The position numbers and the translations under genes were made by a program. This document shows, one piece after another, positions 14,338 to 16,784 of a stretch of DNA of 64,000 nt (position 1 is the first letter of the stretch; each line of letters starts with the position of its first letter). This DNA is from Methyloprofundus sedimenti (lineage in GTDB: Bacteria; Pseudomonadota; Gammaproteobacteria; Methylococcales; Methylomonadaceae). The notes below the pieces were generated by a model that was given only the letters and a program-made list of their open reading frames with translations, did not search any database and was not told the origin of the DNA. The stretch lies in the NCBI RefSeq assembly GCF_002072955.1, contig NZ_LPUF01000001.1, positions 281,001-345,000 on the forward strand. The letters run 5' to 3'.

Positions 14338-16005
14338 ATGTTTTGTTACCATTGCCAGGAAGCTAAAAAAAATATTGCCTGTGATACGGCTGGAATTTGT
14401 GGAAAAAAAGCGGATGTTTCTAGCTTGCATGACTTATTGACCTATACATTAAAAGGCTTGGCTTTTTACGCCGTAAAGGCAGCCGAGTCTGGAATAACTG
14501 ACTCAAACATTGATAAATTCGTTGCTCGCGCTTTATATTCAATGGTAACCAATGTTAATTTTGATCCAGCCGTCTTTGTGCAATTAATTGCAGAAACTGT
14601 GCAAAGGCGCGAGCATTTGAAAAGATTATTGTCCAAAAGTGAAACGGTATTTATTACTGAGGAGCCCGAGGAAGCCCAATGGCTTTATGAAAAAATTGAT
14701 CAAGAGGCCTTCGTAAAGAAAGGAGAAACGGTTGGCGTGCAGGCCGGTGGCGAATTATCCGGTGATGATGCCGATTTACATGCCGCACGGGAAATGCTGA
14801 TCTATGCCGCAAAAGGTTTAGGGGCTTTATTAGAACATATTCAGGTGTTAGATGTGTTTGCGCCTGAACACTATGTTTTTATGTATCAAGCAGTTGCATA
14901 TACTTTGCAAAAACAGCGCAGTTTAAATGAGTTACTCGCCATGAATTATAAATGTGGTGAGCAGGCGATACTGGTTATGGCATTGCTAGAGCAGATCAAT
15001 ATTGAAAAATTTGGCCAGCCCTCTGCAACAACAGTGCATTTAGACTCCTGGGATAAACCTGGTATTTTAGTTTCCGGGCAAGATTTTCATGATTTACAGG
15101 ATTTATTAGAGCAAAGCGCTGGCTCTGGTGTTGATATCTATACCCACGGCGAAATGATTGCTGCCCATAGTTATCCGGCTTTTAAGAAATATTTTAATCT
15201 GGTCGCCAACTATGGTGGTGCATGGCAGGATCAAAAAACCGAGTTTGGCAAGTTTCAAGGCCCTGTTCTGGTAACCACAAACAGCCTGCAACAACCTAAA
15301 AAAGGCTACACTGCAAAGGCCTATACTTCAGGCATGGTTGGCTGGCCTGATATTGCGCATATTGAAAAACGTAGAACCGAAGATGCAAAAGATTTTTCTG
15401 AAATTATCCAGCAAGCACTGCAATGTGAGCCGCCTTTACCTTTAACAGCGGGCAGTGTCACAGTAGGTTATGGACGGCATGCACTCATTGCTTTAACGGA
15501 CACCATTACGCAGTCTATTAAGTCGGGTGATATTAAACGTATTATCGTTTTAATTGGCTGTGACGGGCGGCACAAAGAACGCCGCTATTACACCGATTTA
15601 GTTAAAGCCTTGCCTGCCGATACGCTTATTCTAACGGCTGGTGATACTAAATATCGATTTCATCAGTTAGAATTAGGTGAAATAAACGGTGTGCCACGCC
15701 TTTTGGATGCAGGACAAACTCATGATTTTTATGCAGTGATCGCATTTTTAACCCATTTGCAAAATACCATGCAGCTAGAGCATATTAACCAACTACCTGT
15801 CTCTTTTAATATCGCCTGGTATGAGCAACAAACCATTTTAATGATGCTGGCAATATTCGCTCTTGGTATTAAAAATTTGCGTATAGGCCCCACGTTACCG
15901 CCTTTTTTTAGCCCGGGCATTTTGCAAAAATTAACAGACGAACTGGCGGTTAAAGGAATTGATACGCCAGAAAATGATGTAGCGGCAATGCTTGAAGGTG
16001 AATGA
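14338..16005 (+). CDS. hcp: Hybrid cluster protein (Hcp) homologue with altered hybrid-cluster ligands
   Basis: A 555-residue protein aligning along its length with Hcp, the NO/hydroxylamine reductase. The N-terminal cysteines C3-x2-C6-x8-C15-x5-C21 match the class-1 (anaerobe) 4Fe cluster pattern. Around the hybrid cluster, aligned by flanking motifs to Desulfovibrio numbering, E272 (E268), C408 (C406, IGCDG) and E496 (E494) are kept. Five positions are changed: H244 is Q248 (VSGQDF), C312 is S316 (TTNSLQ), C434 is D436 (TAGDTKYRF), C459 is T461 (AGQTHD) and K496 is Q498 (YEQQ). A normal hybrid cluster therefore seems unlikely and the reductase function is doubtful. The reading frame is intact. 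There is no hcr gene beside it. Confidence 0.8.
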   Translation: MFCYHCQEAKKNIACDTAGICGKKADVSSLHDLLTYTLKGLAFYAVKAAESGITDSNIDKFVARALYSMVTNVNFDPAVFVQLIAETVQRREHLKRLLSKSETVFITEEPEEAQWLYEKIDQEAFVKKGETVGVQAGGELSGDDADLHAAREMLIYAAKGLGALLEHIQVLDVFAPEHYVFMYQAVAYTLQKQRSLNELLAMNYKCGEQAILVMALLEQINIEKFGQPSATTVHLDSWDKPGILVSGQDFHDLQDLLEQSAGSGVDIYTHGEMIAAHSYPAFKKYFNLVANYGGAWQDQKTEFGKFQGPVLVTTNSLQQPKKGYTAKAYTSGMVGWPDIAHIEKRRTEDAKDFSEIIQQALQCEPPLPLTAGSVTVGYGRHALIALTDTITQSIKSGDIKRIIVLIGCDGRHKERRYYTDLVKALPADTLILTAGDTKYRFHQLELGEINGVPRLLDAGQTHDFYAVIAFLTHLQNTMQLEHINQLPVSFNIAWYEQQTILMMLAIFALGIKNLRIGPTLPPFFSPGILQKLTDELAVKGIDTPENDVAAMLEGE

Positions 16006-16077: not shown

Positions 16078-16566
16078 ATGCTAGAAAAAATAATTGAACG
16101 TTTAATTTATGCAAGCCGCTGGCTGTTAGCGCCTATTTATTTGGGGATGAGTTTTGCTTTAATGGCTTTGACGGTTAAGTTTTTTCAAGAACTATATCAC
16201 TTTATCCCTGCAATTTTAACGATAGAAGACAATCAGTTAATTCTGAAACTGCTGACTTTTATCGATTTATCCTTAGTTGGCAGCCTGACCATTATAGTGA
16301 TGTTTAGTGGCTATGATAATTTTGTTTCCCGTCTGGATATTACCGAAGGAACAGAAAAACTATCCTGGCTGGGCACGCATGATTATGGCTCGCTAAAAAT
16401 GAAAGTCGCCTCATCAATAGTGGCTATTTCATCGATACATTTATTAAAGGTTTTTATGAATGTGGAACACATAGCAAATGATAAACTGACCTGGTATGTG
16501 CTCATTCATATTACTTTTGTGCTTTCCGCGTTTTTGATGGGCTATTTAGAAAAACTAAAAGAATGA
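16078..16566 (+). CDS. YqhA/UPF0114 family inner-membrane protein
   Basis: A 162-residue protein with about four membrane helices. The UPF0114 hallmarks are [14 protein letters not shown] near the N-terminus, [19 protein letters not shown] in the middle and [16 protein letters not shown] near the end. The family is widespread; its role is unknown. The stop overlaps the start of the next gene by four bases, so it is co-translated with a glutaredoxin-like protein. Confidence 0.87.
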
Positions 16567-16784
16567 ACAAACTTTTACTGTTAAGCACTTCGGCCTGTCA
16601 TTTATGTGAACAGGCGGAAAGTTTATTATTGCAACTCAATATTGCCTATCAAAAAATTGATATCGCTGAACAGGATCAGTGGCAGGAGCGCTATGCGATT
16701 AAAATCCCGGTGCTATTGAATACCCAGGAACAGCGAGAACTTTGCTGGCCTTTTTCCACTGAAGATATACAGACTTTCGTATAA
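16563..16784 (+). CDS. Glutaredoxin-like (DUF836) thioredoxin-fold protein
   Basis: A 73-residue protein with an N-terminal CHLC redox motif at residues 12-15 ([15 protein letters not shown]) and a cis-proline region IKIPVLL, as in glutaredoxin-like DUF836 proteins. It probably acts on disulfides in the cytoplasm; partners are unknown. It is coupled to yqhA by an ATGA overlap. Confidence 0.8.

Follow-up and report, generated by a model that had tools for sequence, protein, structure and literature searches.

In the portion of PMC10502027 available to us, the seven ligands of the hybrid cluster are described as conserved in all classes of hybrid cluster protein (Hcp). The available portion of PMC8788690 lists strain INp10, Methyloprofundus sedimenti and the endosymbionts of Bathymodiolus japonicus and B. 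platifrons as having hydroxylamine reductase (hcp). Of the two hcp copies in INp10 one is highly transcribed, which that paper interprets as a sign that pMMO produces hydroxylamine. Here we analyzed a stretch of 64,000 nucleotides of the M. sedimenti genome (the window; contig NZ_LPUF01000001.1, positions 281,001 to 345,000), which contains the following gene:

14338..16005, + strand: hcp-like gene, named hcp* here; 555 aa, Prismane fold (open reading frame list; PDB, Pfam and NCBIfam matches; AF2; Foldseek)

Judged from its sequence, the hcp* product is an Hcp by descent and predicted fold, yet it retains three of the seven hybrid-cluster ligands (His, two Glu and four Cys), namely Glu272, Cys408 and Glu496. 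We call it a variant Hcp. A search of PMC open-access papers, supplements aside, found no description of an Hcp without the hybrid-cluster cysteines. The reading frame runs through 555 codons with no internal stop, and the N-terminal motif of class I Hcps, C-x2-C-x8-C-x5-C, is present at Cys3, Cys6, Cys15 and Cys21, as an earlier sequence-only reading of this DNA had stated. The Pfam Prismane model matched residues 1-548 with 393 bits, and the two NCBIfam hydroxylamine reductase models gave 623.5 against a cut-off of 367 (NF003658) and 571.4 against 360.8 (TIGR01703), scores above curated cut-offs that do not check the ligand residues; no CODH family was found among the NCBIfam matches of the window protein. 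The closest solved structures by sequence were class I Hcps, the best being Desulfovibrio vulgaris 1e2u (phmmer, E 1.3e-151, residues 1-554). An AF2 model, for which 33 aligned proteins (the window protein and loci from the clade-peptide scan given below) served as input, had a mean pLDDT of 88.2 and a pTM of 0.90, and its sole segment below 50 was residues 1-20, the 4Fe loop. With this model, the 50 Foldseek matches listed were headed by 1e2u (TM 0.91, rmsd 2.2), followed by other Hcps and then by CODHs (TMq 0.52-0.59). Pfam, AF2 and Foldseek together predict the Hcp fold over the full length of the protein, and the comparison with solved Hcp structures that had been proposed earlier returned an unchanged predicted fold.

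The site residues of D. vulgaris Hcp, which we take to be His244, Glu268, Cys312, Cys406, Cys434, Cys459 and Glu494 with Lys496 nearby, correspond in the window protein to Gln248, Glu272, Ser316, Cys408, Asp436, Thr461, Glu496 and Gln498, with five of the eight replaced. Every residue in the earlier list of replacements was borne out by both phmmer and MAFFT. The accompanying claim that the replacements were no alignment slip also held: from residue 204 on, the sole gap against 1e2u in the phmmer alignment is a two-residue D. vulgaris insert after window residue 323, and the site columns from MAFFT are those from phmmer.

We searched for orthologues in 61 relatives, then in 237 genomes of the family and then in 311 of the order. 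They were found in 41 of the 237 family genomes at 54-83% identity and only within this family. The carriers are 17 of the 18 genomes listed for the genus and 24 genomes from five other genera, and none of the 41 matches contains an internal stop. Hcp matches in other families of the order were 32-39% identical, with none above 39%. One genome of the order also contained a second, distant Prismane-like match (G678:C1:2169595-2170752; 32%, residues 151-551), which is either a class III Hcp or a CODH. Two clade-type peptide patterns were also scanned against one genome per species for 84,980 species, a procedure that detects only sequences holding one of the two patterns. It returned 37 loci, 36 from the methanotroph group, with Methyloprofundus, Bathymodiolus, sponge and Gigantopelta symbionts, Methylobacter luteus and M. 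marinus among the carriers, and one canonical Brachyspira protein. No relatives of hcp* were found in the viral collection searched.

After removal of duplicates, 41 distinct variants from 41 genomes were aligned, two of which (L017 and L022) are cut by contig ends. In a third, L005 from the B. japonicus symbiont, foreign sequence replaces the first 18 residues, and three of the four N-terminal cysteines are missing. A separate piece in the same genome as this locus (L005/L049, on G001:C9) lies at G001:C16:83296-83574 and matches residues 98-189 at 75%; this is either a disrupted gene accompanied by a displaced fragment or an artefact of the assembly.

A second near full-length Hcp homologue (36-45%) accompanies the variant in 20 of the 41 genomes, and five of these second copies were read at the site (L028, L029, L030, L031 and L082); the variant is alone in the other 21, including M. 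sedimenti. The second, canonical hcp that the earlier reading proposed looking for did not turn up: no second Prismane-family protein was found in the 4.29-Mb M. sedimenti genome (4,290,526 bases, completeness 100). With the Hcp-linked reductase of one relative, rather than E. coli Hcr, as query, the best match in this genome was 28%. Among the genomes marked for hcp in the available portion of PMC8788690, we found only the variant in M. sedimenti, in the B. japonicus symbiont (L049, gene head lost; assembly of about 5.0 Mb) and in the B. platifrons symbiont (L046), the assembly searched for the last being 4.0 Mb versus 6.59 Mb in that paper. The genome presumed to be INp10 (G009) contains one variant and one other Hcp copy.

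The codons of the cluster ligands in the window, with the residues found in the variants, are:

14344..14400, + strand: Cys3, Cys6, Cys15 and Cys21, ligands of the N-terminal [4Fe-4S] cluster; all four in 38 of 38 variants having the whole N-terminus
15079..15081, + strand: Gln248 (D. vulgaris His244), codon CAA; His 37, Ser 2, Gln 1 (window), Asn 1 (n=41)
15151..15153, + strand: Glu272 (Glu268), kept; Glu in 41 of 41
15283..15285, + strand: Ser316 (Cys312), followed by the clade-specific Gln318-Gln319; Ser 40, Asn 1 (n=41)
15559..15561, + strand: Cys408 (Cys406, the persulfide position), kept in the window; Cys 23, Thr 9, Tyr 5, Ala 3, Gly 1
15643..15645, + strand: Asp436 (Cys434); Asp 35, Glu 6, a carboxylate in 41 of 41
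15718..15720, + strand: Thr461 (Cys459); Ser 18, Thr 14, Ala 4, Asn 2, Val 1, Ile 1, Gly 1
15823..15825, + strand: Glu496 (Glu494), kept; Glu in 41 of 41
15829..15831, + strand: Gln498 (Lys496), followed by Thr499; Gln 20, Lys 19, His 1, Thr 1

In D. vulgaris numbering, Cys312, Cys434 and Cys459 are absent from all 41 variants and Cys406 is additionally lost in 18, which have no cysteine left at the site; position 459 is a non-ligating Ala, Val, Ile or Gly in seven. The pattern of loss is that sulfur ligands are replaced and that the oxygen ligands, Glu268 and Glu494, stay in 41 of 41. The sequence-only reading had asked whether a clade with the same Q/S/D/T/Q pattern exists. The exact pattern is private to M. 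sedimenti, but a clade signature does exist, consisting of Ser316 (Asn once), Asp or Glu at 436 and loss of the cysteine at 461. Likewise, the H and K replacements are true of the window protein but not of its relatives at large, since 37 of the 41 variants retain His248 and 19 retain Lys498; in assembled sequence, H244Q is confined to the M. sedimenti genome (1/41). New clade residues are found near the site: Gln318 and Gln319 in all 41 variants, Asn287 in 40 (His in 41 of 43 canonical rows), and at position 499 Thr in 39 and Ser in two, where all 43 canonical rows have Ala. Among 38 variants, the codons of the position-434 carboxylate lie two base changes (GAT or GAC) or three (GAA) from a Cys codon. 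The Cys-to-Ser changes at 312 and 459 (codons AGC or AGT) are single-base changes, and the serines at these two positions could be relics.

The eight sites were also read in 57 non-variant rows, representing 56 proteins from the same family, order, class and phylum, from Brachyspira and from the PDB. These rows sample part of the order's canonical-type copies, and two weak matches with no usable open reading frame (L157 and L158) are not among them. HECCCCEK was found in full in 55 rows, and the other two, pieces of one genome, are canonical where covered. Thus, there were no departures at covered sites in the 56 non-variant proteins versus at least three in each of the 41 variants, and independent ligand loss may have occurred among canonical-type copies outside this sample. 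A tree of 38 variants and 29 of the 44 canonical rows was built by a quick method with the eight ligand columns dropped, with SH-aLRT values as its only support and no bootstrap. The variants formed one branch (SH-aLRT 100), the sister of which was the canonical class I Hcp L082 (SH-aLRT 96), and together they grouped with the class I Hcps of D. vulgaris, D. desulfuricans, M. thermolithotrophicus and Brachyspira (SH-aLRT 98), apart from E. coli-type Hcp. On this tree the variants are descendants of a class I Hcp, and a single loss event would suffice. L082 itself (L082:5267-6937, on G260:C13) is a canonical class I Hcp in a variant-bearing genome, on a different contig from the variant, and was the sole such match in the family search.

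Ratios of dN/dS were estimated by the Nei-Gojobori method for 25 pairs, four of which were saturated at synonymous sites. The window gene gave 0.054-0.083 against eight same-genus variants, for which dS was high (1.4-2.8), and 0.18 against L018. Three other variant pairs (dS 1.2-1.5) gave 0.056-0.076, six less diverged ones (dS 0.33-0.94) gave 0.084-0.128, and one very close pair gave 0.21; the values for two canonical pairs were 0.041 and 0.069. Judging by these ratios, the clade is under purifying selection and almost certainly has a selected function. Column entropies were compared in 38 variants and 41 canonical rows, leaving out L005, L017, L022, the fragment L081 and the class III rows L141 and L142. 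The 43 ligand-flanking columns had a mean of 0.59 bits versus 1.20 elsewhere in the variants and 0.57 versus 1.34 in the canonical rows, and none of 5000 random column sets was as low in either group. The eight ligand columns had 0.79 bits in the variants versus 0 in the canonical rows. Because the flanking columns are conserved and clade-specific residues occur near the site, the pocket is constrained, most likely for something new.

Two genes follow hcp* in the window:

16078..16566, + strand: UPF0114 membrane protein gene, next downstream of hcp*; found at this place in 15 of the 41 variant loci
16563..16784, + strand: small glutaredoxin-like gene (Pfam Glrx-like, DUF836), 73 aa, overlapping the end of the UPF0114 gene; it comes after UPF0114 in the same 15 of 41 loci

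Near hcp*, promoter-like sites were no more frequent than expected by chance (8 versus 9.3) and terminator-like sites numbered six versus 2.6 expected, with none found in the gap between hcp* and the UPF0114 gene. The neighborhood was counted over 41 variant loci, some of which are short. A different arrangement was found in 16 of them, with metG upstream and a gene for a soluble RnfB-like ferredoxin downstream of hcp*, all on the same strand and with the ends of the tblastn matches 3-266 bases apart. In one further locus, metG and the RnfB-like gene both lie about 1.7-1.8 kb away; two others, one of them at a contig end, have metG without the RnfB-like gene, and seven show none of these arrangements, among them L072, in which the rnfB-like gene is on the opposite strand. 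In the M. sedimenti genome, the two best RnfB matches (61% and 45%) lie beside other Rnf-type genes, as read from open reading frames with no family search. As a control for the ferredoxin link, we examined 19 genomes that do not have hcp*, six of which have another Hcp-like match. A good rnfB-like locus was found in 18 of the 19, and metG was on the same strand of the same 2.6-3.6 kb locus in seven of these 18. The distance between the two genes was 20 bases in one locus, about 260-380 bases in three others and 0.8-1.2 kb in the remaining three. Given that some relatives lacking hcp* have metG adjoining or near the rnfB-like gene, hcp* was most likely inserted into an older gene pair. The same control weakened the candidacy of the RnfB-like ferredoxin as a dedicated partner of hcp*, and we regard it as a weak partner clue. 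Co-location with the housekeeping gene metG suggests expression apart from nitrosative stress.

The explanation that we favor, with a rough probability of 0.45, is that hcp* encodes a class I Hcp paralogue of this methanotroph family that has lost the hybrid Fe-S-O cluster and gained a new use, keeping the [4Fe-4S] cluster and perhaps holding another metal in the pocket. Its parts differ in strength: we are highly confident that the product has no canonical hybrid cluster, the N-terminal [4Fe-4S] cluster is very likely kept, and a new carboxylate-ligated metal site is a tentative proposal drawn from the pattern of conserved residues. The N-terminal cluster would still be assembled and would act as an electron relay, while the old cluster pocket would have become an oxygen-rich site made of Glu272, Asp or Glu436, Glu496 and usually His248, which might hold a different metal centre, e.g. 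one or two Fe or Mn. If the hybrid cluster has been lost and a different metal occupies its pocket, the product would not be a hydroxylamine or NO reductase of known type. The sequence-only reading had proposed a neofunctionalised Hcp-like protein, with an electron carrier, a nitrosylase-type factor and a binder of another cluster as candidate roles that our data do not tell apart. The selected clade, the 4Fe cysteines in 38 of 38 variants, the absence of three or four hybrid-cluster cysteines and the lack of a canonical hcp among the matches in the M. sedimenti genome agree with neofunctionalisation, although the exact residue pattern on which the proposal was based is not clade-wide. Several findings count against our explanation. 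His248, a presumed part of the new metal site, has given way to Gln in the window protein and to Ser or Asn in three other variants; Cys406 is kept in 23 and Lys496 in 19 of the 41, which leaves room for an altered Fe-S cluster ligated by Asp and Ser; and no gene neighbor of hcp* points to a reaction. The greater entropy of the eight ligand columns in the variants, the possibly relic serines at 312 and 459, the truncated head of L005 and the low AF2 confidence over the 4Fe loop also weigh against it.

These findings bear on several alternatives. The N-terminal cysteines in 38 of 38 variants, the position of hcp* between metG and the ferredoxin gene in 16 of 41 loci and the dispensability of His248 and Cys408 in some variants would also suit an electron carrier, sensor or scaffold that has only the [4Fe-4S] cluster, its second site being metal-free and the pocket retained because it serves folding or binds a partner or small molecule. 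We consider this somewhat unlikely: a buried pocket with three invariant carboxylates and neighbors conserved at the canonical level is hard to explain without a bound ion, and the ferredoxin gene is a poor clue given the controls. The three strictly conserved carboxylates would favor a new oxygen-ligated site over a bare carrier. Distinctly unlikely is a modified Fe-S-O cluster that is still built, with Asp436, Ser316 and Ser or Thr461 as oxygen ligands and with some reductase chemistry kept. Both Glu ligands and mostly the His remain, as do the persulfide Cys in 23 and Lys496 in 19 of the 41 variants, and in the sister CODH family Asp or Glu replaces a C-cluster Cys in groups B-1 to B-3, according to the part of PMC6344411 available to us. 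However, 18 of 41 variants lack any site cysteine, seven have Ala, Val, Ile or Gly at position 459, and the 57 non-variant rows show no change at any covered site.

Two further alternatives would deny the gene a new role. Decay of an hcp heading for loss might explain why, at several ligand positions, the replacing residue differs between variants and why the copy in the IS-rich mussel symbiont (L005) lacks its first 18 residues, but the absence of internal stops in 41 matches, dN/dS far below 1, the clade-specific fixed residues, the N-terminal cysteines in 38 of 38 and the presence of the gene in 17 of 18 same-genus genomes searched make it very improbable. We therefore rejected decay for the clade as a whole, with one member (L005) broken at its head. 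Still less probable, to a vanishing degree, is that an alignment slip or sequencing errors make an ordinary Hcp look like a variant; we found no point in favor of this. The alignment is near-gapless over residues 204-554, and there are 41 distinct sequences from 41 genomes. An alignment slip was rejected, since the phmmer and MAFFT columns agree and the loss is common to the 41 variants; as the loss of Cys312, Cys434 and Cys459 is shared by 41 distinct homologues, sequencing error is ruled out as an overall explanation.

The clade breaks the all-class ligand rule given in the available portion of PMC10502027, and it does so across a whole bacterial group while the gene stays selected; it offers a natural experiment on the uses that the Hcp fold may have when its cluster is missing. 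The finding also corrects annotation, in that the hydroxylamine reductase label falls on a protein that is without most of the cluster cysteines and that probably does something other than reduce hydroxylamine. A more specific and doubtful proposal is that hcp* represents a fourth kind of Hcp-fold protein, in which [4Fe-2S-3O] would have been swapped for an all-oxygen/nitrogen metal site, made of the three carboxylates and in some members a His, wired to the [4Fe-4S] cluster. If true, evolution in marine methanotrophs would have converted an iron-sulfur-oxygen enzyme into one resembling a non-haem metal oxidoreductase.

Among known systems, the variants are most like the class I Hcps (D. vulgaris 1e2u/1w9m, D. 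desulfuricans 1gn9 and M. thermolithotrophicus 8cnr) in predicted fold, length, N-terminal Cys pattern, Glu268 and Glu494, with about 44% identity between the window and D. vulgaris proteins, and they differ in having no Cys312, Cys434 or Cys459 and, in 18 and 22 of 41, respectively, no Cys406 and no Lys496. The canonical L082 of a related methanotroph is 45% identical to the window protein and shares His5 and Met333 with it; however, all eight of its site residues are canonical.

Class II Hcps (that of E. coli and, in the available part of PMC6977074, Hcp/Hcr of M. tundripaludum) belong to the same superfamily, and E. coli-side Hcps occur in some relatives. They differ from the variants in having canonical ligands in those read, at 36-39% identity, and a flavin/2Fe-2S reductase neighbor in the six such loci examined. 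The reductase beside one canonical hcp (L023:3234-4262), the only copy scanned, scored 506.9 with the NCBIfam MmoC model (methane monooxygenase reductase; cut-off 500). A gene of the same group also follows canonical hcp in L027-L031, and the location of the L023 gene suggests that it encodes an Hcp reductase. A parallel for remodelled ligands lies in the CODH branch of the superfamily, where, in the part of PMC6344411 available to us, Ni-CODH groups B-1 to B-3 and G-1 have Asp or Glu in place of Cys; one C-cluster Cys is replaced there, whereas three or four hybrid-cluster cysteines are replaced in the variants.
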